A model generated the notes under the pieces. That model saw only the letters and a list, made by a program, of their open reading frames with translations. It had not been told where the DNA came from and searched no databases. From a virus, in IMG/VR virus record IMGVR_UViG_3300015360_000036, positions 1 to 64,000 of that record: 64,000 bases of DNA. One strand, 5' to 3'. Of the stretch, positions 10,248 to 36,208 are shown in pieces. Made by a program: the position numbers and the translations under genes. Each line of letters opens with the position of its first letter. Within the stretch, counting starts at the first letter, position 1.

Positions 10248-10339
10248 TCATTATCAATATGTTGGTTCTAGCCGTCGATATAGATAGTTCGCAAGTAACA
10301 AACGTATTAAAATAATAGAAAGAACGAGCATTTTTGCTA

Positions 10340-18000: not shown

Positions 18001-18170
18001 ATAATGAACTTGATGTGCAGGTAGCAGAGATATTAGTCAGACTAATTGCTCTTGAAAATCTCCTAATAAAGAAAAATCTAATTCTTGGAGAGGAAATTGT
18101 CAAAGAGATGAAAGGTATAACAGACTCTGTGGTCGCTGCTTTAGCTTCTAAAGAATCAGAATCTAAATGA
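17997..18170 (+). CDS. Small helical hypothetical protein
   Basis: 57 residues, starting inside the deformylase stop (ATGA) and ending in an ATGA overlap with the thioredoxin-like gene. The sequence is an amphipathic helix with a heptad-like pattern (VAEILVRLIALENLLI, then LGEEIVKEM), suggesting a small coiled-coil protein. Its exact fit between two genes is the main support. Function unknown. Confidence 0.7.
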   Translation: MNNELDVQVAEILVRLIALENLLIKKNLILGEEIVKEMKGITDSVVAALASKESESK

Positions 18171-19275: not shown

Positions 19276-19455
19276 ATGATTACTAAAGAATCAATAATGA
19301 CTCTTATTTCAGAAGAAAAAGAAACCTTTAGTAAGTATTCACAATCATGCGCAATATACAAAATCGAAATGGACCCATTGGCTATGGCGAAACATCATGG
19401 GAAACTGGAGATACTACAGATGCTTCTACAAGAAAAGCCTTCTTCAAAAATTTAG
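19276..19455 (+). CDS. Possible small gene overlapping the primase zinc-domain gene
   Basis: A 59-residue frame fills the 78 nt gap after the preceding gene and then overlaps the CHC2-type gene by 109 nt in another frame. Its sequence (ESIMTLISEEKETF and KLEILQMLLQEK) looks protein-like and helical. No SD precedes ATG 19276 or an in-frame GTG at 19261. It ends in TAG. It may be real, in which case the primase-domain gene may start later, or it may be a shadow. Confidence 0.35.
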   Translation: MITKESIMTLISEEKETFSKYSQSCAIYKIEMDPLAMAKHHGKLEILQMLLQEKPSSKI

Positions 19456-19952
19456 TAGATAGAGCTAATTCTGTACCAATCGTAAAAATATTCAAAAGTT
19501 ACGGTTTGAGACTTAGTGAATATAACAAAGATACTATTTGCCCATTCCTAGACCATAAAGGAGGTAGAGAGAGCTCTGCCTCCTTTACTTATTATCCTCC
19601 TACTAATAGTTTCTTTTGCCATGGATGCAGAAAAGGTATCTATGGTACTGATTTCGTTGTAGCTATGGATGGAATTCCAAGAGCAAAAGCTGCTTATAAA
19701 ATATTAGAATTATTTGGTGGCGATGTAGATGATGATGTAGAGTTTGAGACACTTGACATCGCTGAAAGATTAGAAATTATGATGGAATTTTCTAATCGTG
19801 TGAGAGATTTTAGGCAAGACAATACAGATGAAAAATCACTTGTTTTCATTGAAAATATATGCCAGATATATGACGATATGAATAATAAACACAAACTTGA
19901 TAATGAATCTCTTAGAAAATTCATATCAATACTAATAACACAGATTAAGTAA
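19347..19952 (+). CDS. DnaG-type primase zinc-binding (CHC2) domain protein
   Basis: 201 residues. The zinc motif of DnaG primases is present as CPFLDHKGG, then SASFTYYPPTNSFFCHGC (family CPFHxEkxPSF...CFGC), around residues 61-93. It is followed by the usual GTDFVVAMDGIPRAKA helix. The rest is helical and has no TOPRIM catalytic core; that core is encoded 21 kb away at 40786. The protein therefore probably supplies template recognition for a two-piece primase. The start is uncertain: ATG 19347 has no SD and the first 35 residues may not be translated. Confidence 0.82.
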   Translation: MRNIQNRNGPIGYGETSWETGDTTDASTRKAFFKNLVDRANSVPIVKIFKSYGLRLSEYNKDTICPFLDHKGGRESSASFTYYPPTNSFFCHGCRKGIYGTDFVVAMDGIPRAKAAYKILELFGGDVDDDVEFETLDIAERLEIMMEFSNRVRDFRQDNTDEKSLVFIENICQIYDDMNNKHKLDNESLRKFISILITQIK

Positions 19953-19956
19953 TTAT

Positions 19957-21150
19957 ATGCCTTATGCCATTATTTTAGGTGACGTTCATTTGGGAAAAGG
20001 TATCAACATTGGTAAAGCTGGTGTTGGAGCAAGCCTAAATAGTCGAGTCACAGATCAATTAAATCTTTTAGAGTGGACTTTAGATAGAGCATTATATCAT
20101 ACAGCAAGTCATATTATTATAACTGGAGATGTTTTTGAAGATCCAAAACCACATCCAGCGCTAATGACATTATTCATTGGTTGGTTGAAAAAATGTGAAG
20201 CCAATGGTATCAATGTTGATATTATCATGGGTAATCATGATATTCTTAGAAGTGGATTCATCTACAATTCACCTCTAGACATTATTTCTGAATTTGAATT
20301 AGATAACATTACCGTACACAAACAGATAAGTACTATTTTTATAGAATCAACTGCTTTTACCTTAGTTCCATTTAGAGATCGTAAGTCATTTTTCTGTAAT
20401 ACCAATCAAGAGGCTCTAGCACTTCTTAAAGACAGTTTTGTTTATGAACTAGCAAGTATACCAGTGACTTACAAAAAGGTTATGGTTGGTCATTTAGCCA
20501 TCGAAGGCTCAATACCAATTGGCGATGAGATTGATGATATCACGAATGAATTATTCTGTACTATAGATATGTTCACTGGTTATGATAAAGTATGGATGGG
20601 TCATGTTCATAAACCACAGATCATGAGTAAGAACCCATATATAGCTCATACCGGAAGTATGGATATTTCTAATTTTGGTGAGAATGACCATAAGAAACAA
20701 ATTGTAGTACTTGATTGTATTACAAATAAATTTACTTTAGAAGATATTCCAACTAGACAACTTAAGAAGATTGTTATTACTGTACCGAAAGATACCGTAG
20801 ACACAACTGCTTACGTATTAAAACAATTAGAGTCAGAAGATACTTTAGATAGATCTATTGTTAAAGTAGAAGTTGCTTTTGCTTCTCCAGACTTAAAATC
20901 TATAAACAAAGGTTCTATAGAAAAATTTCTGATGAAACAAGGTGCATTTAATGTTACGAATATTTCGGAATCTAAGAAAATAGCTATTATCAAGAAAGAT
21001 AATGCAAAAGTTATAGACACGAAAATGGATGTTTTATCTGCAATACAAACCTACTCCGAGTTGTATGTAGATGATAAAATAAGAGGTAAATTTGTTGAAG
21101 TAGCTAATTCGCTATACGCAGACTATAAGGAAGAAAATGAATCCAATTAA
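19957..21150 (+). CDS. SbcD/Mre11-like nuclease (T4 gp47 type)
   Basis: 397 residues. The calcineurin-like phosphoesterase motifs appear in order: GDVHLGKG near residue 8, GDVFEDPK near residue 55, GNHD near residue 87, GHLAIEG and GHVHKP. With its partner gene it forms the SbcCD/Mre11-Rad50 or T4 gp46/47 complex, which resects DNA ends to start recombination-dependent replication. The C-terminal domain (from about residue 270) is the usual capping and Rad50-binding region. The SbcC-like gene starts 14 nt before its stop. Confidence 0.94.
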   Translation: MPYAIILGDVHLGKGINIGKAGVGASLNSRVTDQLNLLEWTLDRALYHTASHIIITGDVFEDPKPHPALMTLFIGWLKKCEANGINVDIIMGNHDILRSGFIYNSPLDIISEFELDNITVHKQISTIFIESTAFTLVPFRDRKSFFCNTNQEALALLKDSFVYELASIPVTYKKVMVGHLAIEGSIPIGDEIDDITNELFCTIDMFTGYDKVWMGHVHKPQIMSKNPYIAHTGSMDISNFGENDHKKQIVVLDCITNKFTLEDIPTRQLKKIVITVPKDTVDTTAYVLKQLESEDTLDRSIVKVEVAFASPDLKSINKGSIEKFLMKQGAFNVTNISESKKIAIIKKDNAKVIDTKMDVLSAIQTYSELYVDDKIRGKFVEVANSLYADYKEENESN

Positions 21151-23329
21151 ACTGTATATTGAAAATTATATGTGTCATGGTAAATCTACAATAGATTTTA
21201 CACAATTCAATATAGCTCTTATAGTTGGTAAAATTGGGAATAATGATTTATACTCTAATGGTGTAGGTAAAACTACAATTTTTAAGGCAATTGAATATGT
21301 ATTATTCAATCAAGCAGATGTTAATCTAGAGAAGATTATTAGGGACGATACTAATCTATGTAAGGTTATGTTTGATTTTAATTCTGACAACATTACATAC
21401 CGCATTTCCCGTACAAGGACTAGAAAAGGTAGCTCAGATCTTTCTTTATACGAAAGAACGGCTAACGTTGGTACTGAAGTCGAAATTGATGACCCAGCAT
21501 CAGATGCTAAGTTTTGGAAGGATATCTCTGGTAGAAGGGCGGCGGATACTGAAAAAGATCTGGCTAAACTAATAAAGATAAATTTCAAATCATTTAGAAG
21601 TACAGTACATTTTATGCAAAATGATTTTTCAGGATTAACAACTTCTACACCAGAGAAAAGAAAAGGCATATTAAAAGATGCTTTGAATCTTTTAGTATAT
21701 TCTAAGTTGGAAAAAATGGCTAAGGATAAAACAACGCTTTTATCTAAAGATATTGATAAGCATAAAACTCTTATAGATTCACTTGGTGATCCAAATTCCG
21801 AAATAACTCCACTACAAGATCAATTAGTTAATATTGAAATTGTAGTTCAGGACAAGAATATCGAGTTAAAAGGTTTACAAAAAGAACTAGCAAAAGTCAA
21901 TGACAAAATAGCTGAGTTAATTCAAAAACATTCTTTATTGGAAAGTAAGACATCTTCTTTAGTTGCTAGAGAACAAAACCTTATTCTTGATAAGAAAAAG
22001 CTAGAATCATCTATAAAAGAGTACAATTCTAAGCAAACTAATGTTGCTAGTGCCGCTACAGAAATAATCAATGAAATTTCAAAATTAAAAGAGCAGCAAA
22101 CTGCTTTAGCTAAAATTGATTATTCAGAAGTAGATATCATTTCGAATACACTTGAATTGACAAAAACTAAAATAGCTCAATTGAATGGCGTCATACAAAA
22201 TAATATGACACAGTATGAAGAATTAAAAATTCCTGTACCTGATGAGAACGTTTGCAAGCATTGTCGTCAAGGACTATCAGATGAGCATAAGTTACATTGT
22301 AAAAAAATGATTGCTGACGAGATGGATCAATGTCAAACTGCCATCAAAACTGCTAAAAAAGAAATAACTAGCTTAAATACTACAATTATTGCTAATCAAC
22401 AAAAGTTAAATAGCATTAATTTATCAAGACAACAATTAGAGAGTTTGAATACTAAAATAACTGCTAAACATAAAGAAATACAAGATAAGCAGGATATTCA
22501 TAAAGAATATGTAATTATATCAGCCAAGTTTAAAAAAGAGTTTTCTGAAAAGTTACTAGAGTTAGGCGCTGTACAAGAGGAATTAAAGACTTCTTCTTTA
22601 GAAGAGACTAATCTTATTAAGCAGAGTATTGGTACAGAAAATGTAATTGCATCAGGTATTAATACAAAAATCTTAAACATAAACAAAGATATTAGTCATC
22701 AGGCTGGGACTGTTGCGGTTTTAAAGCATTCAATAGCTCAAAAGAATAAAGATAAAAATAAGAAAGAATCATTAGTAAAAGCATTACTTATGCTGGAAGA
22801 AAACTATAAAATTTACCCTTTAGTTGTTCAAGCTTTCTCTTCTACTGGAATACCAAACCTTATTATTCAAAATGTGTTGGACGATTTACAAGTAGAATCA
22901 AATGAATTACTCACTAAATTGAAACCAGGATTACAGTTAGCATTTTCTATAGAAAAAACTAAGGGTGATGGATCGCAAGATGAAACTCTTGATATTCAAT
23001 ACTTTGTAAGCGGTAAATCTAGAGATTATGATCAATTGTCCGGTGCTATGAAACTTGCAGTTACTTTCAGTCTAAAGTTAGGACTTTCATTCTTATTGCA
23101 AAAGATGATTGGTACAGATATTAAGATACTTATGTTAGATGAAATTGATCAATCTTTAGATAAGGCAAGTGTTGATGCATTTGCTGATATTGTTAAGTTT
23201 TTTCAAAACGACTTTACGATCCTTATTATTACACATAACGATAGATTGAAAGATAAATTCTCACACGCTATATTGGTCGAACAAGATATGAATATGGTGT
23301 CAACTGCGAGCGTCGTCTCGTCTTGGTAA
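21137..23329 (+). CDS. SbcC/Rad50-like ATPase (T4 gp46 type)
   Basis: 730 residues. Walker A is SNGVGKTT near residue 41. Long coiled coils follow on both sides of a zinc-hook motif VCKHCRQG near residue 375. The ABC signature is degenerate (QLSGAMKLA instead of LSGGE). Walker B is ILMLDEIDQSLD near residue 675, with the H-loop His in ITHND. It dimerises through the hook and drives DNA end processing with the SbcD-like subunit. At 730 residues it is shorter than cellular SbcC (about 1050) but longer than T4 gp46 (about 560). AAGGA SD. Confidence 0.94.
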   Translation: MNPIKLYIENYMCHGKSTIDFTQFNIALIVGKIGNNDLYSNGVGKTTIFKAIEYVLFNQADVNLEKIIRDDTNLCKVMFDFNSDNITYRISRTRTRKGSSDLSLYERTANVGTEVEIDDPASDAKFWKDISGRRAADTEKDLAKLIKINFKSFRSTVHFMQNDFSGLTTSTPEKRKGILKDALNLLVYSKLEKMAKDKTTLLSKDIDKHKTLIDSLGDPNSEITPLQDQLVNIEIVVQDKNIELKGLQKELAKVNDKIAELIQKHSLLESKTSSLVAREQNLILDKKKLESSIKEYNSKQTNVASAATEIINEISKLKEQQTALAKIDYSEVDIISNTLELTKTKIAQLNGVIQNNMTQYEELKIPVPDENVCKHCRQGLSDEHKLHCKKMIADEMDQCQTAIKTAKKEITSLNTTIIANQQKLNSINLSRQQLESLNTKITAKHKEIQDKQDIHKEYVIISAKFKKEFSEKLLELGAVQEELKTSSLEETNLIKQSIGTENVIASGINTKILNINKDISHQAGTVAVLKHSIAQKNKDKNKKESLVKALLMLEENYKIYPLVVQAFSSTGIPNLIIQNVLDDLQVESNELLTKLKPGLQLAFSIEKTKGDGSQDETLDIQYFVSGKSRDYDQLSGAMKLAVTFSLKLGLSFLLQKMIGTDIKILMLDEIDQSLDKASVDAFADIVKFFQNDFTILIITHNDRLKDKFSHAILVEQDMNMVSTASVVSSW

Positions 23330-23337
23330 GGAATAAA

Positions 23338-23922
23338 ATGTATAAAATAGCTATTGTTGGAAAAGCTAACTCAGGTAAAGATACTATTGCAAAGCTTTTC
23401 GGTAGAAGATTGAAAGAAACTAAGCATGTCGGTAAATTCAGGAGCATGGCTTTTGCTGATCCAATTAAAGAGATTATCAGGGTCATGTTTCCTTCAATAC
23501 CCAGAAAGCATTTATACGGTTCTTCAAAGTATCGCTCAGAAGTTATACCAGGGGCTTTCAAAGACGGCGTACCATTGACTATAAGGCAGTTGCTTATAGA
23601 TATTGGTACCGGTCTTGGTAGAGGATATAGTGATTCTATTTGGTTGGATAATTTTGATAATAGATTAGATCATCCAAATCGGTATCAAAGACATTCACCA
23701 GTTATTGTTACTGATACTAGGTTCAGAAATGAATTTGATCACCTTAAAAGCAAAGGATTCAAGATGGTTAAAGTTATTAGAGATTCGTACCTAGTAAGTA
23801 ACCATATTAGTGAAACTGAACAGGACTCTATAAAAAATGGTGAATTTGATATCATTATAAATAATAATGGTAGTCTTGCTGATTTGAAAGATCTTGTTTT
23901 TAAAGAAGCAGACGCTATATAA
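23338..23922 (+). CDS. Deoxynucleoside monophosphate kinase
   Basis: About 194 residues. The P-loop is GKANSGKDT (residues 8-16), followed by the T4 gp1-type segments FADPIKEIIRVMFP, RQLLIDIGTGLGR and IVTDTRFRNEFDHLK. Such enzymes phosphorylate dNMPs (dTMP, dGMP, and hydroxymethyl-dCMP in T4) so that degraded host DNA can feed synthesis. ATG 23338 has AAGGA 6 nt upstream, better than the GTG-like start at 23323. Confidence 0.9.
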   Translation: MYKIAIVGKANSGKDTIAKLFGRRLKETKHVGKFRSMAFADPIKEIIRVMFPSIPRKHLYGSSKYRSEVIPGAFKDGVPLTIRQLLIDIGTGLGRGYSDSIWLDNFDNRLDHPNRYQRHSPVIVTDTRFRNEFDHLKSKGFKMVKVIRDSYLVSNHISETEQDSIKNGEFDIIINNNGSLADLKDLVFKEADAI

Positions 23923-23947
23923 TAGTATATTTGAGCATATAGTCAAG

Positions 23948-24262
23948 ATGAACCTAGACTTGCTTAAAAAAGAATTTTTGCCGAGATACTTGGCTGTTGG
24001 AGAGCAGGAGTTTTATAAATTTCTGCTCGTTTTTGCAATGACTAGGTTGGTAGCTATCGAAAAAGGCGATTATAAGGGGTCAACACCGGATTTAGAGTTC
24101 TTACAATACTATGAAGGGTTTATAATATTGTATAGAAGGGAAGGTGATGAAAATTATATTAATGCTGCCAGATTATTCAGAAAGGCTGCACATAAAATTA
24201 ATCGACTCATGCTTAAAAAAAACATGACAGTCAAAAGCCCTAAATTCTTAACTTTGGTATAA
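23948..24262 (+). CDS. Hypothetical helical protein
   Basis: 104 residues from ATG 23948 (or 122 from 23894, overlapping the kinase). It is helical, with aromatic-rich EQEFYKFLLVFAMTRLVAIEK and RLFRKAAHKINRLMLKK. No motif is recognised. The weak SD leaves the start open. A virion-like gene starts 1 nt after its stop. Confidence 0.6.
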   Translation: MNLDLLKKEFLPRYLAVGEQEFYKFLLVFAMTRLVAIEKGDYKGSTPDLEFLQYYEGFIILYRREGDENYINAARLFRKAAHKINRLMLKKNMTVKSPKFLTLV

Positions 24263-24263
24263 T

Positions 24264-25256
24264 ATGGTAGTAATAAGCATTGAAATAGAACAGTCAGCAG
24301 AAGAAATTGTTTCTGGTATTCCAAAAACAGTTACAATTACTGCAAGCACATCAGCCCCTATCTTTTATACTTTAGATGGTAGCGAGCCCACAATATTTTC
24401 AGAAATATACGTCAGCGCAATTTTCTTGCCAACGGACAGTTTAACACTTACATTGAAAGCGATGGCGACTGACGGCATCGATACCTCACCGGTAATTTCT
24501 GAAACATATTTTACCAATTTAACAGTAGGCAAGAACGCTCGCTTAGCTCACTCAGCCACAAGTGCTCAAGCTGGCGACGTTATCGAAAGCCGATACCCCT
24601 TCGGTTCAAGTTCACCAGATCCTAATACAATATTTTTATCTTCTGGTGATGTTGGTATTACGGTTAATGATCCATCATTAGAACAAATTATTGATGGTTA
24701 TGGCGCTGATGGCGAACCTAATTCATTTACTAATGAAGAGTACACTACAGAAAACTATAGCATCAAATATTCTGATGATGATGCAATTGGTCAAATGGGC
24801 AATGGCATTGGAAGCCTTCCTAATAATATAACGGTCACTAGACCTGTTGCACCGCCAAATACAACTAATCAATTCTCTGTAGCTTTCGATCCAAGAGCTT
24901 TGGTAATATTTCAAGACGTATCTTTGGAAGATCCAAATGATCCGCCATACATAAATAGAGAATTCTTTTCATTAGAAAATAGTGATGTTACAAGAGATGG
25001 TAATAATTATTACAATACTGGATTAGATTCTCCACCTGTATCTGGATCTTTTTTAAGATCTCATTTTAATGCTAGAGATAATACTATGACTTATTACTAT
25101 ATGGATACCATAGCTAATAAGTGGATTATATCAAAAACTCCATATAATCCAACATCAAATTCAACGGATAATTTGGGTGGAATGGCATTATCTAATAGAC
25201 CTGGAGCAAAGTATGTTTACGAGTGGCGCCCATTTGCAAGAAGAGTTCTATTTTAA
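24264..25256 (+). CDS. Probable virion protein with chitobiase-like C-terminal (CHB_HEX) domain
   Basis: 330 residues. The first 85 residues form a CHB_HEX_C-like beta sandwich: a PKTVTITASTSAPIFYTLDG segment, GSEPT, and later LKAMATDG. The rest is beta-rich with Asp/Asn/Pro-rich loops and a C-terminal region in which GGMALSNRPGAKYVYEWRPF stands out. Such modules occur in phage tail and capsid accessory proteins that contact the host surface. The identity of the binding target is unknown. Confidence 0.7.
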   Translation: MVVISIEIEQSAEEIVSGIPKTVTITASTSAPIFYTLDGSEPTIFSEIYVSAIFLPTDSLTLTLKAMATDGIDTSPVISETYFTNLTVGKNARLAHSATSAQAGDVIESRYPFGSSSPDPNTIFLSSGDVGITVNDPSLEQIIDGYGADGEPNSFTNEEYTTENYSIKYSDDDAIGQMGNGIGSLPNNITVTRPVAPPNTTNQFSVAFDPRALVIFQDVSLEDPNDPPYINREFFSLENSDVTRDGNNYYNTGLDSPPVSGSFLRSHFNARDNTMTYYYMDTIANKWIISKTPYNPTSNSTDNLGGMALSNRPGAKYVYEWRPFARRVLF

Positions 25257-25258
25257 TT

Positions 25259-25630
25259 ATGATTATAAGGGTGTTTAAGCCTAACAAGGGTACAAATAGT
25301 TTAAAGCTTTGTTATCGAAATGAAAATGGGCAACTACATAGAATAGATGGTCCAGCTAAAATTTATCATGATGGTAGCGAAGAGTGGTGGCAAAATGGTG
25401 TACTACACAGAGATGGCGAGCCTGCTACTATTTGGATAAATACAAATGGTATAACTAAAAGATGGTTTTTTAATGGACTTCTGCATAGAGTAGATGGTCC
25501 TGCTGAAGAATATTCTGATGGTGATAAACATTAGTATATTCATGATGTACCGCATAGAGTAGACGGTCCAGCCATAGAAATTAATGATGGACGTAAGTAT
25601 TGGTATTATAATGGAAGAAAAATTGATTGA
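25259..25630 (+). pseudogene. MORN-like repeat gene interrupted by an in-frame TAG
   Basis: The frame from ATG 25259 encodes three repeats of the pattern xxWxxNGxLHRxDGPA, then meets TAG at 25532-25534. Beyond it, in the same frame, the repeat goes on (YIHDVPHRVDGPAIEI, then KYWYYNGRK) to TGA 25628-25630. The TAG falls where each other repeat has a conserved Trp (TGG), so a single G-to-A change explains it. These proteins resemble YwqK/MORN-type phage proteins of unknown role. Upstream stop and frame fit suggest about 123 codons before the mutation. Readthrough is an alternative. Confidence 0.8.
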
Positions 25631-25729
25631 AAAAATCAAAAAGAATTCTCAATAATGATAAAGTTACTGACGTTTTGCTAATCTGATATATAGAGCATTA
25701 CACTATTTACAATTGAAAAGAATATATTT

Positions 25730-26545
25730 ATGACTCAGGAAGAAGAGTATAAGCCATTAAGGCTTAGCGTATCTAAAACGAAAACATTCTTAGATTGCAG
25801 ACGGAAGTTTGAGTATTCTTATATACAAAAACTTCCCAAGAAAGATTGGGAGCATCACACTTTTGGTAAGTTCTGCCATAAAGTATTAGAAGATTTTCAT
25901 CAGTACTATCTTGAAGGTAGCCAAGATCCATACAACATAAGTATGAACAAGGCTTTTAAAGCTGCCTGGACAGAGTACAAAGCACAAATGACTCCTGAAA
26001 TGAAAAAGGATTGTTTTGCTATTATCAATAATTACTTGAAATTAGTTAGTGATGAAAAGAGGGATGGTATTGCAGCAAATGTTCTGGCTTGTGAAAAGAA
26101 GTTTGAATTGCCAATAAAAAGAAGTGATGGTAATCATTTGGTTTTGAATGGTATGATTGATCGTATTCAATTAGATTCTGATGGAGTAATTCACGTAGCT
26201 GACTATAAGAGTACTAAGAATAAAAAGTATTTGAAGAATGATTGGTTTCAATTACTTACATATGCTTATGTGTTAATATCAGAAGATCCTAATATAAAGA
26301 AGGTTAGAGGGTCCTATGTTCTATTGAGACATAATTTTGAGTATATTACTGCTGAGTTTGAAGTACCAGAAATTATGACAGTTGCAGAAAAGTATTTAAA
26401 TTATGCTAATGAAATAGATAGTGAAAAGGAGTATCCTGCTAACCCTACAGGATTGTGCAATTATTGTGATTTCCAGAATATGTGTGCCGAGGGGAAAACA
26501 AAATCTTTTGATTATCAAAAAATTTATGGCGAGGTAAGTTGGTAA
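25730..26545 (+). CDS. PD-(D/E)XK nuclease, Cas4/AddB-like with Fe-S cysteines
   Basis: 271 residues. The RecB-type nuclease motifs are LSVSKTKTFLDCRRKFEY at the N-terminus (one Fe-S Cys), HKVLEDFH, then GMIDRIQLD and VADYKSTK (the D...ExK-type active site, with Glu replaced in the usual way by a Tyr-Lys arrangement), and QLLTYAYVL. The last three Cys of the cluster lie in LCNYCDFQNMC near residue 250. Related enzymes are 5'-3' or 3'-5' exonucleases that process DNA ends. It probably works in phage recombination or host DNA breakdown. A consensus promoter follows its stop. Confidence 0.9.
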   Translation: MTQEEEYKPLRLSVSKTKTFLDCRRKFEYSYIQKLPKKDWEHHTFGKFCHKVLEDFHQYYLEGSQDPYNISMNKAFKAAWTEYKAQMTPEMKKDCFAIINNYLKLVSDEKRDGIAANVLACEKKFELPIKRSDGNHLVLNGMIDRIQLDSDGVIHVADYKSTKNKKYLKNDWFQLLTYAYVLISEDPNIKKVRGSYVLLRHNFEYITAEFEVPEIMTVAEKYLNYANEIDSEKEYPANPTGLCNYCDFQNMCAEGKTKSFDYQKIYGEVSW

Positions 26546-26555
26546 ATACCAGCCC

Positions 26556-26583
26556 TTGACAGAAAAAATATAGTTATTATAAT
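26556..26583 (+). promoter_or_regulatory. Consensus sigma-70 promoter for trigger factor
   Basis: TTGACA (26556-26561), a 16 nt spacer and TATAAT (26578-26583) match the bacterial sigma-70 consensus at all 12 positions. Transcription would start near 26590, downstream of the ATG at 26582, which fixes the trigger-factor start at 26618 with its AGGAAG SD. It is the best promoter in the window and should be recognised by unmodified host polymerase. Confidence 0.85.
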
Positions 26584-26617
26584 GGTTAGTGCCAACATTG
26601 AGAAAATAGGAAGAAAA

Positions 26618-27868
26618 ATGCAAATCGAAGTTAAAGAAATTGAGCCATGCAAACTATCAGTTCATTATGAAGCAAATGCTGAGCAGATTCTAAATAAAAG
26701 AGCGGAGGTGTTCCAAGCCTTTAAGAAAGCACCTGTACCGGGATTCAGACCAGGTAAAGTAGCTCCAGAAGCTATTAAAATGCATTACAAGAATCAGATT
26801 GAGGAAGCTCTTAAAAGGGGTTTAGCAGAAGATGCTTACCATAATACGCTTTTCGAGAAAAAGCTAAGAGCACACGGTGCTCCAAGGTTTACCACATTAT
26901 CACTAATTGGTGGTAAGTTTAGTTGTGATTTTGATCTACACACTAAGCCAGATTTTGAGCTAGCTCCTTATCATAAGCTAAATGTACCAAAACCACACAG
27001 TCCTTTATCACAAAGTGATATAGCCGAAAAAATGCTTCAAGAAGTTAGAGTTCGTCTTGGAGAGCACACCCCTTATTCAGATACTGATTTCGTTCAAATG
27101 AATGATAATGTCATTGTTGATTATGAGGGTTCAGTAGATGGTGTTAAAGTTGAGGCATTAACCGCTACTGGTGAGATGCTTAATGTTGGAACCAGCCAAT
27201 TACCAGCATTTGATGAAAATTTATTGGGTATGACTGTAGGCGAAACTAGGGAATTTTCCCTGGTAGCTCCAGCTAATTCTTTACCATCATTAGCTGGAAA
27301 GCTTGTTACATTTAAAGTAACGCTTACTATTGGTTCAAAGAACACTCCAGCAGCTTTGGATGATAGTTTAGCTGTAAAACTTGGTAAAAAAGATTACAAT
27401 GAATTACGTGAATTTGTGACAGCCAATGCTGGCGCTCAAGTAATCAATACAGGAAAATCTGCATTAAATGGTTCTATCACCGCAAAACTAGTAGAAGATA
27501 ATAAAATTGATGTGCCAAACTGGCTTGCTCTTTCTGAAGCTCAGTATTTAGCTCATCATTCAAAAATGGATTGGAATACTATTTCTGATGCAGATAAGGA
27601 TAAGCTTTTGATAATGGCAGAGAAAAATGTCAAATTATCATTGGTGTTAGATAAGATTAGAGAGACTGAGCCTGATGCCCAGCTAAGTGATAATGAAGTA
27701 CTTAATATAATTAAGCACAATATGTCTAAAACTAAATTACAATCATCATCATTTGATGATGCGATTAAAGAGATGACAAGAACAGGTTATCTTCAAGTTT
27801 TATTCTCAAGAATAAAAGATGAATATACTCTAGACTACATCGTAAAATCAGCAATCATAACGGAATAA
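26618..27868 (+). CDS. tig: Trigger factor chaperone
   Basis: 416 residues, close to the bacterial length (about 430). The ribosome-docking signature GFRPGK is intact at residues 42-47 (E. coli GFRxGK). The peptidyl-prolyl isomerase domain follows (DNVIVDYEGSVDG, then LGMTVGETREFSL), then the helical arms of the C-terminal chaperone domain. Trigger factor binds the ribosomal exit tunnel and shields nascent chains. An intact docking loop means it could displace the host copy. ATG 26618 has AGGAAG 5 nt upstream and lies below a consensus promoter, which argues for early strong expression. Confidence 0.95.
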   Translation: MQIEVKEIEPCKLSVHYEANAEQILNKRAEVFQAFKKAPVPGFRPGKVAPEAIKMHYKNQIEEALKRGLAEDAYHNTLFEKKLRAHGAPRFTTLSLIGGKFSCDFDLHTKPDFELAPYHKLNVPKPHSPLSQSDIAEKMLQEVRVRLGEHTPYSDTDFVQMNDNVIVDYEGSVDGVKVEALTATGEMLNVGTSQLPAFDENLLGMTVGETREFSLVAPANSLPSLAGKLVTFKVTLTIGSKNTPAALDDSLAVKLGKKDYNELREFVTANAGAQVINTGKSALNGSITAKLVEDNKIDVPNWLALSEAQYLAHHSKMDWNTISDADKDKLLIMAEKNVKLSLVLDKIRETEPDAQLSDNEVLNIIKHNMSKTKLQSSSFDDAIKEMTRTGYLQVLFSRIKDEYTLDYIVKSAIITE

Positions 27869-27881
27869 TAGGTAAAATATA

Positions 27882-28199
27882 ATGTCAACAGATTCAAATG
27901 ATCCAGTAACGTTCGCGGAAAAATGGGCTAAAGTACTCAAGGAGCTTCCTGAGTTTAAAGAGAATGCAGATGCAGCAAGCGTAGAGGATTTAAAGAAAAT
28001 CATCGTCACTTGTGAAGGTAACATTTATGAGACAGATAAAGCTAAAGAAGCTGATGTTAAATTAAATGCAGCTAAAGAATGTGTTAAAGATTTTTCAGCG
28101 CCATATCGTGATGCAATTAAAGTACAAACCGCAAAAATCAAATATGCTTTATTCTTACTTGATGGCAAGGGAGAAGATGTTGGTGATAGGGAAGAATAA
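27882..28199 (+). CDS. Hypothetical helical protein
   Basis: 105 residues, acidic and helical with alternating Lys/Glu (KEADVKLNAAKECVKDF, then SAPYRDAIKVQTAKIKYAL). This region resembles the N-terminal helical hairpins of small phage proteins that pair with an enzyme, but no family is recognised. An AGG SD precedes it and the stop overlaps the next start (TAATG). It is in the trigger-factor operon. Confidence 0.65.
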   Translation: MSTDSNDPVTFAEKWAKVLKELPEFKENADAASVEDLKKIIVTCEGNIYETDKAKEADVKLNAAKECVKDFSAPYRDAIKVQTAKIKYALFLLDGKGEDVGDREE

Positions 28200-28477
28200 T
28201 GAAGGTTGAAAGATTTACCGTCCAAGCTTGCTGTGGAAGGACATCTTTGATTTTCAAAACAGATCAGCCTCTTACAAAAACCATACTAGATCAATTAGTT
28301 AGTATGGGTTTTAAAGAGGCTGTGCATTTTACTAAAGCTGGAATCCTATGGGTAGATAATATGGACTTAATAGTAACAGGTCCGCTGGGTTCTAATAAGC
28401 TACAGGTGAAATGCAAGAAAGCTGATTGTAGTCAAAATCTTAATGAATTCGAGGATTTACTTCTAAAAATAGGTTAA
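28199..28477 (+). CDS. Hypothetical protein
   Basis: 92 residues with an alpha/beta pattern and Cys residues at CCGRT near the start and KCKKADC near residue 75; a metal site is possible. A GGGAAG SD overlaps the end of the preceding gene. Function unknown. Confidence 0.65.
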   Translation: MKVERFTVQACCGRTSLIFKTDQPLTKTILDQLVSMGFKEAVHFTKAGILWVDNMDLIVTGPLGSNKLQVKCKKADCSQNLNEFEDLLLKIG

Positions 28478-28479
28478 AT

Positions 28480-29145
28480 ATGACTAATAATGGTGTTGGC
28501 ACAATAGCTAATGTAAGAAAAAAGTTTCATTCTACACATGAATTGATAACAACTTCATATCATGAAGCTGGTCATGCTGTGTACGGTTTACTCAAATGCA
28601 TGAAAATCGAAGAGGTTTCTGTATTTGAAAATAAGAAAACCAAAAGAATTGAGGGTTTTACTTACTATAAATCACCAACACCAGAACAGTTTATTGATCC
28701 AGATTTGACTTATTATTGGTTAATAGCTGAAATAAGTTGCAAATATGCAGGATTAGGTGCCGAAAAGTATCATTTTAAGAGTATTTCAGGATCTGATAAA
28801 TTCCCGATGTTCTTGAGAGATGGATCTTCTAGTGATACTTTGTCTGCCGCGGCGATGATAAGACAATTCAATTTATCACCACCAGGCAGGAAAACTTATA
28901 ATTATAAGAAATTGCTTATAAAAAATACTTGCCGTAACTTGCAAGAACATTGGGATGCTGTTACACTAGTATCCCACGCATTATTTAAAAAGAAAAGATT
29001 AGATTATGAGGAGATTAAAAATCTCCTTATTAAAAAATCTAGTCATAAACAATTTTGGAAAGAAAGATTCCAAATAATTTCAACTATTTATGGATTGCCT
29101 TCAACGATTGATGAAGCTGAACTAAAGCTGATTTTATTTATTTGA
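28480..29145 (+). CDS. Stand-alone M41 (FtsH)-type zinc metalloprotease
   Basis: 221 residues. The zinc motif HEAGH is at residues 28-32 in SYHEAGHAVYG. Downstream, KYAGLGAEKYHF corresponds to the GGxxAE segment of FtsH, and the third zinc ligand is probably the Asp in SSSDTLSAAAMIRQF. FtsH joins this protease to an AAA domain and membrane helices; both are missing here, so the protein must act alone, on unfolded substrates, or with a separate ATPase. No membrane segment is seen. It is last in the trigger-factor transcript. Confidence 0.85.
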   Translation: MTNNGVGTIANVRKKFHSTHELITTSYHEAGHAVYGLLKCMKIEEVSVFENKKTKRIEGFTYYKSPTPEQFIDPDLTYYWLIAEISCKYAGLGAEKYHFKSISGSDKFPMFLRDGSSSDTLSAAAMIRQFNLSPPGRKTYNYKKLLIKNTCRNLQEHWDAVTLVSHALFKKKRLDYEEIKNLLIKKSSHKQFWKERFQIISTIYGLPSTIDEAELKLILFI

Positions 29146-29168
29146 AATTATTCCCTGACAATCATACG

Positions 29169-29188
29169 TGCCCCATTTTTATGGGGCA
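29169..29188 (+). other. Perfect hairpin TGCCCCAT-TTTT-ATGGGGCA
   Basis: An 8 bp perfect stem with a TTTT loop between the M41-like gene and the polymerase gene. No T-run follows, so it is not a standard terminator. It could mark a processing site or an RNA-protein site, or work as a terminator with a factor. Confidence 0.6.
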
Positions 29189-29219
29189 TAGTGCTTTGTG
29201 CATAAGCCCGATATGATTT

Positions 29220-29228
29220 TGTTACAAT
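29220..29228 (+). promoter_or_regulatory. Extended -10 promoter before the polymerase gene
   Basis: TGT plus TACAAT (29223-29228) fits an extended -10 element (TGnTATAAT with one mismatch). No good -35 lies at the proper distance. A start near 29235 would leave a short leader with an AAGGA SD before ATG 29249. Confidence 0.45.
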
Positions 29229-29248
29229 ACTAACCCTAAGGACATAAC

Positions 29249-32200
29249 ATGACTGATTACGTTTCTTTACATAACCAAACCGATTTTTCCATTCTCGATT
29301 CAACAATTTCAGTCAAATCACTTTTTAAACGTGCAAAAGAGTTAAACCAAAAAGCTGTAGCTATTACCGATCATGGCACGTTTGCGGCTGCTTGGGATGC
29401 CCTAAAGGCATCAAGAGAAACTGGTGTTAAACTCATAATGGGTTGCGAATTCTATTTCAGGAATGATTGCAAAAACGAAGATGAGAGATTTAAGCATATA
29501 ATCCTATTAGCTAAAAATGCTGTTGGATATAGAAATATTCTAACCTTAAACAAAAAAGGTTATGACCAAAATCTATTTGTAGGTAAGAGAATATATTCAG
29601 TAATTGATTGGAAATTACTAGAACAACACTCTGAGGGTGTAATTTGTTTAACGGCTTGTGGTAATGGTATTCTTTCCCAGCCACTTATGAAAGGCAATGT
29701 AGATGAAGTTGAAGCTTCATTGCTAAAGTTAAAGAAGCTATTTGGTGAGAATCTAGGAATAGAGGTTCAGCCAAACAACATGAAGAGGGGATCTTCTGTA
29801 TTTAATGATGAAATTGATCAGCAATTTCTCAATAAAAGACTTATTGAGTTAGGTAAAAAGCATGATGTAAAAGTCGTTGCTGCTAACAATGCTCATTATA
29901 CTACGAAAGAAGAGCATGATACTCATAACGTATTACTAGCAATTGGCTCACATCAACCAGTACATTCAAATTATAGATTAAGATATCCTGTGCCTGATTT
30001 CTATATGAAGTCAGGTGATGAGGTTAAAGCATTTTTCTCTAGAAATTATGGGGAAGAATTCGCAGAAACTGTTTGTGCTAACTCTATTATTTTTGCTGAT
30101 ATGTGCGAAATACCAGATTGGATTGATCCGAAGTTTTCAAATCCTTCAGGTAAAGAGCTTCCAATCTTTCCAGTTAAAGATGAGCATGACTATGATACAT
30201 TTGTTATCTGGGCTTCCAAACAGTCAGATGATGTAAGAAAATTGGAGGATGATAAACTTTTCCTTCGCTACAGTTGCGAAAAGAAGTTTGCAAGTAGAGT
30301 AAAGAATCTCAGTGAAACACAGTTAATGGAATACAATGCTAGAATTGCTGAAGAACTAGATGTTTTAGAGTTCCATGGATTTTCTAGCTACATGTTAATT
30401 GTAGCTGATTATATTGATTGGGCTAGAAAGAATGACATTGCCGTTGGTGATGGTCGTGGTTCTGTTGGTGGCTCACTTATAGCTTATCTATTGGGAATCC
30501 ATCAAGCTGATCCAATTAAATACAATTTAATTTTTGCACGTTTCCATAATAAGGAAAAATCAAGCTTTCCAGATATTGATACTGACTTTGCGCCATCAGG
30601 TAGAGAGAAAGTACAAAATTATCTACGTCAAAAATATGGTGCTGATCATGTCGCCCACGTTTCTAACGTTAATACAATCACGCCTAAGGTCTATGTAAGG
30701 GATATTGCCCGTGCTTGTGAACTAGGCGGATCACGAGAAGAAGCTATTAGAATCGGTACTGACGTTGCTGATTGCATTCCTGCTGATATTCATTCCATTG
30801 AGGATGCCCTTAATAAGGTACCCCTATTCTCTGAGTATTGCAAAAAGTACCCAGAGTTTATTAAGTATTCAGCTATCTGTGGTAAGTACAGGGCATGGTC
30901 AACTCATGCTGGTGGTATCATCATATCTGCAAGACCTCTTACAGGGCTTGTGCCACTTAGGAATGATAAGGATGGTTCTTTAGCTATTGAGTACGATAAG
31001 GATAAAGCTGAAGAGAATGGTTTGGTAAAAATGGATACTCTAGGGTTATCTACACTCGATGTCATTGGTCAAGCTATGAAATTGATTAAAGCTTCTGGTA
31101 AAGAAATGCCACCAGATGTTCTTGATTATGATCAGTATGATGAGGCTACGTACAATTTAGTATCTCAGGGCGACACTTTATGTGTATTCCAGTTTGGCAC
31201 TAGCAGTGGTACTATTGATCTTTGTAAGAGAATCAAACCTAAAACAATTGAAGACTTAGCAAACATCAATGCTCTTGCTCGACCATCAGCAAGGGACATG
31301 AGAAATGACTTCATTAACGTTCGTGATGGTAAGAAAGCAATGGCATTACTACATCCTAAACTTGATCGAGCATTCGGAAGAACGAATGGTTTAGGTTTAT
31401 ATGAAGAGTGTCTAATGTATCTTGCGCAAGATATTGCTGGTTGGAGCTTGCATTCAGCAGATCGGCTTAGAAAACTAACTAAAGAAAAAGGTAAGAATCC
31501 AAAGAAGGCGCAGCAATGGAGGTCTGAGTTCATTACAGATGCAGTTTCACAGCAAGTAAATGAAGAAATTGCTAAGCGTATTTGGGATGAAGTTGTTGAT
31601 AAGTTTCAGGGCTACGGTTTCAACGTCAGCCATGCTGTTTTGTATTCCATGATTGGTTTTAAGACTGCATACCTTAAAGCTCATTTTCCAATTGAGTTTA
31701 TGCTTGCGAATCTTATGTCAGAAATTGTTTCTAATACACCAGATTCTAAATCTAAGATTGATAAGATTAAGACTGAATTAAGGAGTAATAAGGTAAAGAT
31801 TCTGGCACCAGATATCAATACTTCACAGATCGCATATACAATTGTAGATGGTAATAAGTTAACTACTGGTCTAGATGCATTAAAGTTTGTTGGTGAAGAT
31901 GCTATTAAAGATATTTTAGAAAAGAGACCATTTAATAGCTTTGCTGATTTTATGTCTAGAGTCGATTCAAAAAAGGTTAGAGCGAATACTATTCAAGCAT
32001 TAGCTGCTAGTGGTTGTTTAGATTCTTTTAAGCTTCCAAGAAAATCAATGTTCCTATATTGTTCTGATTACAGGAAGAAACTTCAAGTATGGATGAAGAA
32101 GCATGATCCAAAGAAGGAAGAATTTGCTTATCCATGGTTGAATGATGGTGAGTGGAATGTAACTGAGTTATATGCATTGGAACAGTTTTATCTTGGAGAA

Positions 32201-32788
32201 TCATTTGTTTGTAAGCCTACTGATGCTTATGGCAAGTTTTTTAAGGATGAGCATATGACAACTAGAGATGTAAAAAAATCAAAAGATAAGACCAGGATTT
32301 CTCCAATGAAAGGTATTATTAAGGATTTCTTTGAATTCAAAGTCAAGAAGGAAACTTCTAAGTACTATGGTCAATCAATGGTAAAAGCGGTCATTGAGGA
32401 TAAATATGGTGACCAATGTTCTTTCACTATCTTCCCAGACAGGTGGAAAGTAGTGCAAGATCGTATCAAACAAGTAAATAGTAAAGCTACGTTCTCAGTA
32501 GGATTAGCTTTAAGTTTTGCTGGTAATACAAATAACTATGAGGATGATATGGGTATTATTCTTGAATATTTATTCGATCTTGCTATTCAGCCTGCATTGC
32601 CAGGTGATTTGAAGGCTAAGAAAATAAATATGAAAGAAGCTCGTACTAGATCAAATACAGAGCCAACAAATGTTGTTGTGACAAAGGATAGTGAAAAAGA
32701 TGCATTTTCTAGATTATTTGAAGAAATTGAAGATCAAATGTATGATGAAGGTTTAATCGATTTAGACGAAGACTTTCAAGAAAGATGA
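29249..32788 (+). CDS. dnaE: DNA polymerase III alpha subunit (DnaE type)
   Basis: 1179 residues, near full DnaE length. The PHP domain starts the protein (SLHNQTDFSILD, then AITDHGTFAAAWD, GCEFYF). Its HxH metal motif reads HNQ, so the PHP site is altered. The polymerase acidic residues are intact: FPDIDTDF near residue 445 and KMDTLGLSTLDV near residue 595. The fingers and a C-terminal domain with helix-hairpin-helix-like and OB-like segments follow. This is the probable replicative polymerase. No proofreading subunit, clamp or clamp loader lies in the window. AAGGA SD; a hairpin and extended -10 precede it. Confidence 0.96.
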   Translation: MTDYVSLHNQTDFSILDSTISVKSLFKRAKELNQKAVAITDHGTFAAAWDALKASRETGVKLIMGCEFYFRNDCKNEDERFKHIILLAKNAVGYRNILTLNKKGYDQNLFVGKRIYSVIDWKLLEQHSEGVICLTACGNGILSQPLMKGNVDEVEASLLKLKKLFGENLGIEVQPNNMKRGSSVFNDEIDQQFLNKRLIELGKKHDVKVVAANNAHYTTKEEHDTHNVLLAIGSHQPVHSNYRLRYPVPDFYMKSGDEVKAFFSRNYGEEFAETVCANSIIFADMCEIPDWIDPKFSNPSGKELPIFPVKDEHDYDTFVIWASKQSDDVRKLEDDKLFLRYSCEKKFASRVKNLSETQLMEYNARIAEELDVLEFHGFSSYMLIVADYIDWARKNDIAVGDGRGSVGGSLIAYLLGIHQADPIKYNLIFARFHNKEKSSFPDIDTDFAPSGREKVQNYLRQKYGADHVAHVSNVNTITPKVYVRDIARACELGGSREEAIRIGTDVADCIPADIHSIEDALNKVPLFSEYCKKYPEFIKYSAICGKYRAWSTHAGGIIISARPLTGLVPLRNDKDGSLAIEYDKDKAEENGLVKMDTLGLSTLDVIGQAMKLIKASGKEMPPDVLDYDQYDEATYNLVSQGDTLCVFQFGTSSGTIDLCKRIKPKTIEDLANINALARPSARDMRNDFINVRDGKKAMALLHPKLDRAFGRTNGLGLYEECLMYLAQDIAGWSLHSADRLRKLTKEKGKNPKKAQQWRSEFITDAVSQQVNEEIAKRIWDEVVDKFQGYGFNVSHAVLYSMIGFKTAYLKAHFPIEFMLANLMSEIVSNTPDSKSKIDKIKTELRSNKVKILAPDINTSQIAYTIVDGNKLTTGLDALKFVGEDAIKDILEKRPFNSFADFMSRVDSKKVRANTIQALAASGCLDSFKLPRKSMFLYCSDYRKKLQVWMKKHDPKKEEFAYPWLNDGEWNVTELYALEQFYLGESFVCKPTDAYGKFFKDEHMTTRDVKKSKDKTRISPMKGIIKDFFEFKVKKETSKYYGQSMVKAVIEDKYGDQCSFTIFPDRWKVVQDRIKQVNSKATFSVGLALSFAGNTNNYEDDMGIILEYLFDLAIQPALPGDLKAKKINMKEARTRSNTEPTNVVVTKDSEKDAFSRLFEEIEDQMYDEGLIDLDEDFQER

Positions 32789-32793
32789 TATAT

Positions 32794-32863
32794 ATGATAT
32801 CAACTGCTAATAGAATTAGTCTAGAAAATAGTTGATATCATCAAAATGATAGATTTGATATCA
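32794..32863. promoter_or_regulatory. Three TGATATCA palindromes, probable operators
   Basis: TGATATCA occurs at 32795-32802, 32833-32840 and 32856-32863 in the 103 nt between dnaE and the HTH gene. The first two lie in a 12 bp perfect inverted repeat (32794-32805 with 32830-32841), and its loop holds a smaller one, CTAAT-AGA-ATTAG. They look like operator sites, most simply for the HTH protein encoded next, or else like iterons. Confidence 0.65.
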
Positions 32864-32891
32864 GATGTATATGCATAAAGAGAGATAAATC

Positions 32892-33731
32892 ATGAAGCTT
32901 AGAGAATGGGCTGAAAAAACTGGTGTAAAGTACTTAACTGCTTATAGGTGGTTTAAGGCTGGTACACTTCCAGTTAAATCTTATCAAACTGAATCTGGGA
33001 CAATCATAGTAGATGACCCAGAGTTGTCGGAGCAGCAAATGGCAAGTAATGCAAATAGTATACAAAATGATGTTATGTCTATCTTTTTGAAAAAGATGGT
33101 AGAGTTCAGTAAAATTAATGCATCGGTAGAAGACTTTGCCGCATACATTATTTCAAATTTCGTTTTGAAACTGCCCTCTACACCTGAAACGGGACCAAAA
33201 TACTCTAGGAACAAACCTAAAGCAGAAGAGGTCCAGAAGTATTTTCAGCAATTCCTTAAAAAAGGTGATAAACCAGTACCACATATTGCAGTAGGTGATA
33301 TCGATACAATTGATGATTTGGTAGCAAAAGCAGATACGTTATCAACTAAAGAGTTGGTAAGTGAGATCTCTAAAATTGGTGAAATTAAAAATGATGCACC
33401 TGATGTAGCAGAGCTTCAAAAAATAGTTGATGCATTTAAAGGTTTACAAATAACTAAAGTAAAAACTTATGACAAGGTTTACGGCGGGGTAATCGCTAGA
33501 AGTATACACGATTCAACTCCACAAACCTATACCGACTTCTCAGATGATGAAGCCGCTGTAAGCCTTGGTCAAGAATTATCGGAACCAGAACCAATCTTAG
33601 TAAGATCGGTTTCAGCCGTAGGCGCAACGGGCGCATTCAAGCCCACAAAGAAAGAATTAGAATCAGCCTCTAAAGCAATAAAATCTGCTGGCGCCAATAA
33701 GAAGACCATCAAGTCATCAAGGAAGAAATAA
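32892..33731 (+). CDS. MerR/excisionase-like HTH DNA-binding protein
   Basis: 279 residues. The N-terminus (LREWAEKTGVKYLTAYRWFK, then AGTLPVKSYQ) matches the MerR-like winged HTH found in IS607-type resolvases and phage excisionase-like proteins. No recombinase domain follows; the rest is helical, with a Lys/Ser-rich C-terminal tail. Such an architecture suits a repressor, a partition protein or a DNA organiser. Three TGATATCA sites directly upstream suggest autoregulation. A GAGAG SD lies before the ATG; the stop overlaps the next start (TAATG). Confidence 0.8.
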   Translation: MKLREWAEKTGVKYLTAYRWFKAGTLPVKSYQTESGTIIVDDPELSEQQMASNANSIQNDVMSIFLKKMVEFSKINASVEDFAAYIISNFVLKLPSTPETGPKYSRNKPKAEEVQKYFQQFLKKGDKPVPHIAVGDIDTIDDLVAKADTLSTKELVSEISKIGEIKNDAPDVAELQKIVDAFKGLQITKVKTYDKVYGGVIARSIHDSTPQTYTDFSDDEAAVSLGQELSEPEPILVRSVSAVGATGAFKPTKKELESASKAIKSAGANKKTIKSSRKK

Positions 33732-34369
33732 TGAAAATTCTAAATAAAACACATCTTGTAAAAGTATTGGCTTATTTCCCAGAGGTACAAGAAAAGATAA
33801 ATAAGACAACTATTGCTGGCGCGGCATTTGTAACTACAAATTTATCAAAAGTATTAAAAGCAGTTGTAGTACTTAATGGTCTTGATCCTGCTCGAAGCCA
33901 AAGAGATAGATTATTCGAAAGTATGAGTTTATGTTTCGCAACAGTGCATGATGGTGATTATGATAAAAATTATAACCCTAATTTCTGGAGTAATAAAAAA
34001 TTTCAAGAAGCAAAAGTTGTTAATCAAGAATTGACAGCTAAACAATTTGTTAGTGCAACTGATTTATCAGATTTAACAGACCCACCAGCATTACCTGTAT
34101 CTGAAGAAGTTTCAGAACAATTATTATTGTTTACTGATGCAGTAGATGTTATAGAGCAATCAGAGTTAAAGGTAGCTATTGGGGTTAATGCTGGTACTTT
34201 GGTTGAAGATAAGTTAATGAGAAATCTTGAAGAATTAATAAAAACTACAGATGATCCACACTTTAAAGATCAATTGAATCGTCAATATACTCATCAGGAA
34301 AATGGATTAAATGCTCCAACAAGAAATTTTGCTGAAATTGCTCGTGTTCGTAGAACATCCTTAGCTTAA
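33731..34369 (+). CDS. Hypothetical protein
   Basis: 212 residues. The N-terminal half is alpha/beta (VKVLAYFPEVQEKINKTTI), the middle acidic, and the C-terminal half helical with KLMRNLEELIKTTDDPHF. AGGAAG SD within the end of the HTH gene. It is translated with the HTH gene and may be its partner, but nothing in the sequence shows how. Confidence 0.65.
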   Translation: MKILNKTHLVKVLAYFPEVQEKINKTTIAGAAFVTTNLSKVLKAVVVLNGLDPARSQRDRLFESMSLCFATVHDGDYDKNYNPNFWSNKKFQEAKVVNQELTAKQFVSATDLSDLTDPPALPVSEEVSEQLLLFTDAVDVIEQSELKVAIGVNAGTLVEDKLMRNLEELIKTTDDPHFKDQLNRQYTHQENGLNAPTRNFAEIARVRRTSLA

Positions 34370-34385
34370 TATAAAGGAAATCAAT

Positions 34386-35219
34386 ATGAAATGTATGTCT
34401 TGTGAAGCATCAATTAATCCAAAATGGAAACATGCTATAGATAATAACACCTGTCCTTGCTGCGGTCTTTTCATCATGGAAGAGGAATTGAAGGAATTAT
34501 TATTGTCATTAGGTGAAACCATAAATGATCTAAGTAAATATCAAGAGCAAGTAGATGATTGGTTACTATCAAACCATAACTATATTAAAACTGATTCACC
34601 CAATCTTGTAAATTATATTCCTCAAGATATTATGGATCAAGTAAAAGAAGACGCTAAAGAAGCGGCTATGAATGCTATTAAAGTTATAAAAAATAAAGAT
34701 TTTGCTGAAAGAAAAGCTTCAGGCGGGAAATACACTGTTAAGGTAGAGACTGAGAATGGTGAGCAAGATGTTGAAGTTGAAAAAATCCAAGATGAAGATA
34801 CAACAAATGACTTCTTCAAAAGAGCAGAAGCAGTAAAACCAAATATTGATGGATTTAAAGATCCAGCAGATAAGACAAAGAAGTTAAAAAATCTAGTCCA
34901 ACAAATCAAGAAAAATGGAACTGGCGGAATGGCTGGTGGTGGAAGCGCTATGTCAGAATATGCTGATCCAGAAGCTGTAGCTGAAATGGAAGGCTTCATT
35001 AGTGGTGGTGGAGAGATTAGCTCTGCATTATCATCTGATGGTGGTGACGATGACGCTATTCCATCCATTGTATTATCAATGGCAAATAAAGCTAGAGGTA
35101 ATGGAAATACAAGTGAAGCCAATGCTAGGGACTTACAAAAGCTAGAAGCTTTGCAAAGTAGAACTGCTTCAGCTAGAAGTAATAGTTTGAGCGGCAAAGG
35201 AGCATTTTCTAGATCATGA
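34386..35219 (+). CDS. Hypothetical protein with N-terminal zinc ribbon
   Basis: 277 residues. MKCMSCEAS and CPCCGLF (residues 2-29) form a CxxC-CxxC zinc ribbon. Residues 30-60 are a helix, followed by a long helical part and a Gly/Ser/Ala-rich, low-complexity tail (about residues 180-277). Such a layout suits a nucleic-acid-binding accessory protein. AAGGA SD. The next gene overlaps the stop by 4 nt. Confidence 0.7.
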   Translation: MKCMSCEASINPKWKHAIDNNTCPCCGLFIMEEELKELLLSLGETINDLSKYQEQVDDWLLSNHNYIKTDSPNLVNYIPQDIMDQVKEDAKEAAMNAIKVIKNKDFAERKASGGKYTVKVETENGEQDVEVEKIQDEDTTNDFFKRAEAVKPNIDGFKDPADKTKKLKNLVQQIKKNGTGGMAGGGSAMSEYADPEAVAEMEGFISGGGEISSALSSDGGDDDAIPSIVLSMANKARGNGNTSEANARDLQKLEALQSRTASARSNSLSGKGAFSRS

Positions 35220-35521
35220 GTATGAGAATAATTGACAACAAAAAAATAGATTTAACGGATGATGAGTGGACAATGTACGAAAATATTGTCAAGTCATATA
35301 CCACTGCGACGAACAAGGGCGAGGATCTATTTATCGATTTATTTGAAACTGGACCAGATGGAATTATTGTTTATCTGAAACCACCATCTAAGTTTAGAAC
35401 TAGTTTCGAAGTGTTCTTGTATCTAATGAGCATTATGCAGCACCAACATCTTCGGCAAATGTATAAGAAGGTTGATGATGTTTGTGCGCAAATGAAACAA
35501 AAAATTGATAGTATAAAATAA
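35216..35521 (+). CDS. Hypothetical protein
   Basis: 101 residues (or 99 from ATG 35222). An alpha/beta segment DLTDDEWTMYENIVKSYT is followed by a strand GIIVYLKPPSK and a helix FEVFLYLMSIMQHQHLR. No known family, but the residue pattern looks well conserved. It overlaps the preceding zinc-ribbon gene by ATGA. Confidence 0.65.
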   Translation: MSMRIIDNKKIDLTDDEWTMYENIVKSYTTATNKGEDLFIDLFETGPDGIIVYLKPPSKFRTSFEVFLYLMSIMQHQHLRQMYKKVDDVCAQMKQKIDSIK

Positions 35522-35574
35522 CATCATTTGTCGAGAAAAAGTTCGAAACATTACATATTTAAGGGAAGTCGATT

Positions 35575-36093: not shown

Positions 36094-36208
36094 TTAAAAG
36101 AATCATAACTCCTGGCTAGATAATTAAATATAGTCGAATATGAAAAAATTGCCCATTAGATATAGCAGATATGCAAACACGGGCGAAACAAATATAGGGA
36201 GTTATGAT
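36081..36208 (+). promoter_or_regulatory. Mutually exclusive RNA pairings covering the recA start
   Basis: ATCATAACTCC (36102-36112) is a perfect 11 bp complement of GGAGTTATGAT (36198-36208), which contains the SD and both candidate ATGs of recA. The same segment can also pair with GGGTTATGA (36081-36089) at the end of the preceding gene (9 bp with one GU). The two hairpins exclude each other. A ribosome finishing the upstream gene would break the upstream one. This could be a translational switch. Confidence 0.55.

Follow-up and report, generated by a model that had tools for sequence, protein, structure and literature searches.

Trigger factor (TF) is the chaperone that newly made proteins meet at their exit from the ribosome. 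Takeover of translation by phages is known for tRNAs, ribosomal protein bS21, elongation factors and deformylase.

A nascent chain emerging from the ribosomal tunnel is received by deformylase, aminopeptidase and TF, the last of which can do without its isomerase domain in its main chaperone function (PMC8185961). The docking signature GFRxGxxP and its two helices contact uL23, uL29 and 23S rRNA (PMC9527764). The substrate pocket of the E. coli protein is formed by F168, F177, I195, F198, F217, Y221 and F233 (PMC6166725), and E178, I195, F198, Y221 and F233 have been named as key residues (PMC9527764). A chloroplast TF, in which other changes are found in the same pocket, has about 1% of the isomerase activity of E. 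coli TF (PMC9527764). From huge phages, bS21 and deformylase have already been published (PMC7162821). A survey of Southern Ocean viral proteins found no TF analogue (PMC8407431), and no phage TF was described in the main texts of the literature that we searched; supplementary tables may contain one annotated earlier.

The DNA analyzed here, referred to as the window, comprises bases 1-64,000 of a 73,768-base virus record. Genes for terminase, portal, DnaE-type polymerase, RecA-like and SMC-like proteins and topoisomerase confirm that it belongs to a tailed phage, and no tRNA genes were found in these 64 kb.

Gene, fold and promoter of the phage trigger factor

The window carries a genuine TF gene (Table 1), as seen from both the gene and the predicted fold of its product. 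Pfam recognized Trigger_N (74.2 bits, residues 1-139), FKBP_C (23.1 bits vs. a cut-off of 21.1, residues 159-214) and Trigger_C (29 bits, residues 262-409), in this order and all above the cut-offs, and a PDB sequence search matched solved trigger factors. The AlphaFold2 model, for which 17 phage sequences served as input, reached a pLDDT of 86. Its top match in the PDB fold search was E. coli TF 1w26 (E 1.3e-22), and the leading matches were all TFs over their full length, the chloroplast TF included. Whole-chain TM values against the PDB TFs were 0.5-0.6 with a large rmsd, indicating that the relative placement of the domains differs from that in solved TFs. No viral structural match to the model was found in BFVD at E <= 0.001. 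PHROG 26774 ('unknown function') matched the protein at 112 bits, showing that an unnamed viral cluster of it exists. The preliminary description had called the TF and its chaperone domain complete and had pointed to a GFRPGK docking loop, and all three are seen here, the loop at residues 42-47.

The full sigma-70 consensus promoter that had been reported is likewise present, with TTGACA at 26556-26561, a 16-nt spacer, TATAAT at 26578-26583 and a predicted transcription start at about 26590. This is the only exact 12/12 match in the 64 kb, where shuffling gave an expectation of 0.21, and it sits in sense orientation inside a 72-base intergenic gap. As intergenic DNA makes up only 5.5% of the window, a chance match in a sense-oriented gap has a probability of about 0.6%. 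Chance origin is thus unlikely, and use as a promoter is predicted rather than proven. In most relatives TF starts about 10 nt past the stop codon of the preceding nuclease gene, behind an AGAGGA-like site, and the relatives compared had no consensus promoter before TF. The promoter is therefore a private addition of this phage, and we rejected it as a feature of the family. The TF reading frame can be extended upstream to ATG 26582; this codon was rejected as the start because it overlaps the TATAAT box and the TFs of relatives begin at the equivalent of 26618.

Table 1. Features of the window discussed in the text
Feature	Position	Strand	Evidence
Ribosomal protein bS21 homologue with terminal extensions	11690..12058	+	match at 11819-11971
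Peptide deformylase with C-terminal SEC-C motif	17473..18000	+	Pfam 90 bits, motifs
Replication block with TF	19347..37400	+	conserved; profile and locus comparisons
Sigma-70-type promoter, TTGACA + 16 nt + TATAAT	26556..26583	+	12/12 match; activity predicted
Shine-Dalgarno-like AGGAAG ahead of ATG 26618	26608..26613	+	sequence
Trigger factor (TF) gene, 416 aa	26618..27868	+	Pfam, PDB sequence search, model, fold search
N-terminal ribosome-binding domain	26618..27034	+	Trigger_N, residues 1-139
Docking loop GFRPGK, residues 42-47	26741..26758	+	sequence
FKBP-like (PPIase) domain	27065..27337	+	Pfam and pocket comparison
C-terminal chaperone domain, sequence-contiguous part	27401..27844	+	Trigger_C, residues 262-409

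Trigger factor as a core gene of a huge-phage lineage

Sequence searches recovered TF relatives with 31-65% identity on IMG/VR contigs of up to 481 kb, the deeper ones (31-42% identity, contigs up to 459 kb) coming from a search with a mixed alignment. The gene order SMC-like, dNMP kinase, Fn3-associated, PD-(D/E)XK nuclease, TF, small genes and polymerase was kept to the deepest members, and synteny of the locus persisted down to 31% TF identity. When the neighbouring polymerase alone was used in a search blind to TF, 19 loci were obtained, and TF was at the same place in all of them (19/19). In the window, the replication block comprises a primase zinc finger, phosphoesterase, SMC-like protein, dNMP kinase, PD-(D/E)XK nuclease, TF, an M41-like protein, DnaE polymerase and a RecA-like protein.

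In trees from two samplings the phage TFs formed one clade with a support of 100/100 and a long stem. Pairwise dN/dS of about 0.05-0.13 among the closest phage pairs points to strong purifying selection. Identity to even the nearest bacterial proteins does not exceed about 30%. A first profile scan of genome contigs with the phage TF alignment gave no match, and a second one returned only distant bacterial TFs, none so close that it would point to a donor or host.

Recent capture from a host, or contamination of the assembly, might be suspected, as TF is a bacterial housekeeping gene and the two INPHARED 'phage' TFs whose neighbours we examined lie on bacterial chromosome in the order tig-clpP-clpX. 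For this lineage the explanation is refuted and its probability is negligible: phage genes flank TF at every locus, the TF-blind search recovered it each time, and no bacterial TF exceeds about 30% identity to the members of the separate long-stemmed clade. That TF belongs to the syntenic core of a lineage of huge phages, and is not the curiosity of one phage, is well supported.

Several further observations concern these loci. The INPHARED records labelled 'Acinetobacter phage MD-2021a' (L081) represent bacterial chromosome with metX, leuA and tig-clpP-clpX, i.e., mislabelled contigs. A deep clade (L203, L204, L205, L206 and L207 (TF at 8001)), with 31-35% identity on contigs of up to 459 kb, retains GFRPGK and has a shortened isomerase domain in four of its five members. 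An Fn3-associated/chitobiase-like protein (24264-25256), encoded between dNMP kinase and nuclease, is a further conserved member of the replication block. Directly behind TF lie two small conserved proteins of 105 and 92 aa (27882-28477) that are unassigned to a family, the smaller with 46-75% identity in most close relatives. The next gene (28480-29145) encodes a stand-alone M41 (FtsH peptidase)-like protein, below the Pfam cut-off, with HEAGH and without an AAA+ domain; in close relatives it is always found two small genes downstream of TF. An unattached AAA ATPase is encoded at 10334-11665.

The ribosome-docking loop

Positions are numbered after E. coli TF; the sequence used agrees with the 1w26 alignment over the compared range. 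Since the pattern used to retrieve all 47 bacterial TFs and 12 of the 48 phage ones contains the docking motif, the docking counts rest on the other 36 phage TFs. Among these, G43 and R45 were found in 36/36, F44 in 32/36 and G47 in 35/36. The window sequence GFRPGKVAP contains GFRxG, with the final P one residue off in comparison with the bacterial GFRxGxxP. In phage TFs the docking loop is among the best-kept stretches and the N-domain is more conserved than the PPIase domain, whereas the reverse holds for bacterial TFs. These conserved residues suggest that phage TF probably binds the ribosome at uL23. The docking phenylalanine is missing in 4 of the 48 phage TFs, and docking may therefore be lost in some members.

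The same four members, together with the fixed synteny with replication genes, would fit a chaperone that works off the ribosome and is dedicated to the neighbouring replication proteins (DnaE polymerase, SMC-like). Such a function seems scarcely probable to us for a protein whose docking loop is so well kept, and which co-occurs with other exit-port enzymes.

A divergent TF of 33% identity (L070:6614-7864) has the docking loop GNRKGK, which makes it an obvious member in which ribosome docking may have changed or been lost; on its 85-kb record bS21 was present and no deformylase was found.

The isomerase pocket

The PPIase domain had also been described as complete, which is true of its fold but not of its pocket, where residues are missing from every phage TF. 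At the positions of F168, F177, I195, F198, F217, Y221 and F233 the window TF has Y, V, L, F, A, S and F, and H222 is deleted in it, as in 46/48 phage TFs overall. None of the 48 phage TFs has F177, F217 or Y221, vs. 40/47, 40/47 and 41/47 bacterial ones that keep them (about 85% each), and four of the five deepest members have a deletion of the F217-Y221 stretch. F198 is retained in 46 and F233 in 36 of the 48, both residues being present in the window TF. The pocket is thus not that of a catalytically typical FKBP-type prolyl isomerase, and membership among the TFs is unaffected by this.

With its three domains and the kept F198 and F233, the window protein could be a fully active TF, isomerase included, that has a host-like role and provides an extra dose at the peak of phage translation. 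We consider this unlikely in view of the universal loss of F177, F217 and Y221 and the nearly universal deletion of H222, as the lost residues line the pocket and the proline cleft of E. coli TF (PMC6166725). Because the isomerase domain is dispensable for the main chaperone function, the simplest reading is a holdase that docks on the ribosome and has little or no isomerase activity. The loss may be partial, as the chloroplast TF keeps about 1% activity and phage TFs keep F198 and mostly F233; we do not claim a total loss, and judge from the residues that isomerase activity is probably weak or absent.

Retention of docking during decay of the isomerase pocket would also be expected of a ribosome-bound blocker at uL23 that displaces host TF, SRP or SecA, thereby changing protein biogenesis in the host, and for which chaperoning is a secondary matter. 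For this the N-domain alone would suffice, yet the entire C-terminal chaperone domain is kept under purifying selection, which makes a blocker very unlikely.

Accompanying exit-port genes

The window encodes a peptide deformylase identified by the motifs GIGLAGPQIG, EEGCLSFPG and HEIDH, the first of which (GxGLAAxQ) has one A to G change. Its C-terminal SEC-C tail, CLCGSNKKYKKCC, was found in the window and in the relatives examined, deep ones included. The metal-binding domain of SecA, which has the SEC-C motif, binds ribosomes (PMC6620043), and by analogy the tail of the phage deformylase is possibly a ribosome tether. In the literature searched, deformylase and SEC-C were named together only in an unrelated context. 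The bS21 homologue has long basic extensions and lies about 15 kb upstream of TF.

Deformylase was found in 23 and bS21 in 21 of the 24 lineage records, bS21 being present in all except short fragments. Methionine aminopeptidase occurred in 15/24, always 129-171 kb downstream of TF; the other nine end short of this distance, and the gene is thus present in 15/15 records that reach far enough. In the copies examined the metal-site motifs GGHG, EPM and FEH/AEH are intact. Deformylase, aminopeptidase and TF are therefore all viral in this lineage: they co-occur, and may act jointly. GroEL was absent from the 15 records examined, which shows that the genes are not a general chaperone set. EF-G is not a core gene, with matches in 2/15 records and a partial one in one more.

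A thioredoxin-like protein encoded at 18167-18496 has SSWLPFHKK in place of the CxxC redox site, conserved as ASWMPYHKK in many relatives. It is a redox-dead thioredoxin fold by these residues, and perhaps a polymerase or other accessory factor.

Proposed mode of action

We favour, with a probability of roughly 75%, a core TF of a phage lineage that docks at uL23 as an isomerase-poor holdase beside viral exit-port factors. Transcription of TF would begin at the private promoter or reach the gene by read-through from farther upstream, and the protein would dock through GFRPGK on the ribosome of the infected cell at uL23, as its conserved residues suggest. The N- and C-domains, both retained under purifying selection, would then shield nascent, mostly phage, chains, with prolyl-isomerase action reduced through the pocket loss. 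TF would work beside phage bS21, the SEC-C deformylase and methionine aminopeptidase. Most likely, the phage brings its own counterparts of the factors that handle a chain on its way out of the tunnel.

The timing of TF may be early. Its gene has replication genes as neighbours, with terminase and portal about 27 kb away, and we found no evidence for a preference of TF for virion proteins; given this setting, it is simpler to assume that TF acts generally on phage proteins as they emerge from the tunnel.

More tentatively, at somewhat below even odds, bS21, SEC-C-tethered deformylase, methionine aminopeptidase and isomerase-poor TF may form a viral exit-port kit that acts together on captured ribosomes. 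If so, nascent-chain processing in infected cells would be largely in the hands of viral factors, tuned to docking and holding and not to proline isomerization.

Comparison with known systems

The phage TF shares domain order, fold and the GFRxGK loop with bacterial TF (tig; E. coli 1W26, V. cholerae 1T11). It differs in its identity of only about 20-30%, its separate clade, the loss of the F177/F217/Y221 pocket residues and the lack of the C-terminal tail; it lies in a replication block, whereas tig stands beside clpP-clpX in the bacterial contigs examined. Docking has thus been separated in evolution from the isomerase pocket, which offers a natural experiment on the purpose of the TF isomerase domain. 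Chloroplast TIG1 (7ZGI) is likewise divergent with a changed isomerase pocket, and the land-plant signature GFRPGxxxP fits the phage GFRPGKVAP (PMC9527764). Unlike the phage protein, TIG1 acts in a plastid, has other pocket residues changed, keeps the Tyr221 equivalent and has a measured activity (about 1%).

Among the translation genes of huge phages, namely bS21, deformylase and elongation factors (PMC7162821), the first two are also found here; TF and methionine aminopeptidase, both present in our lineage, are not mentioned in the main text of that study. With a ribosome-associated chaperone among the core genes of a divergent lineage of huge phages, the takeover extends to co-translational folding, and a viral TF with its docking end kept and parts of the isomerase pocket lost suggests a takeover of new-protein processing. 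The SEC-C motif of SecA recurs on the phage deformylase, here fused to the enzyme and with putative ribosome binding, a fusion that suggests another way to tether an enzyme to the ribosome.
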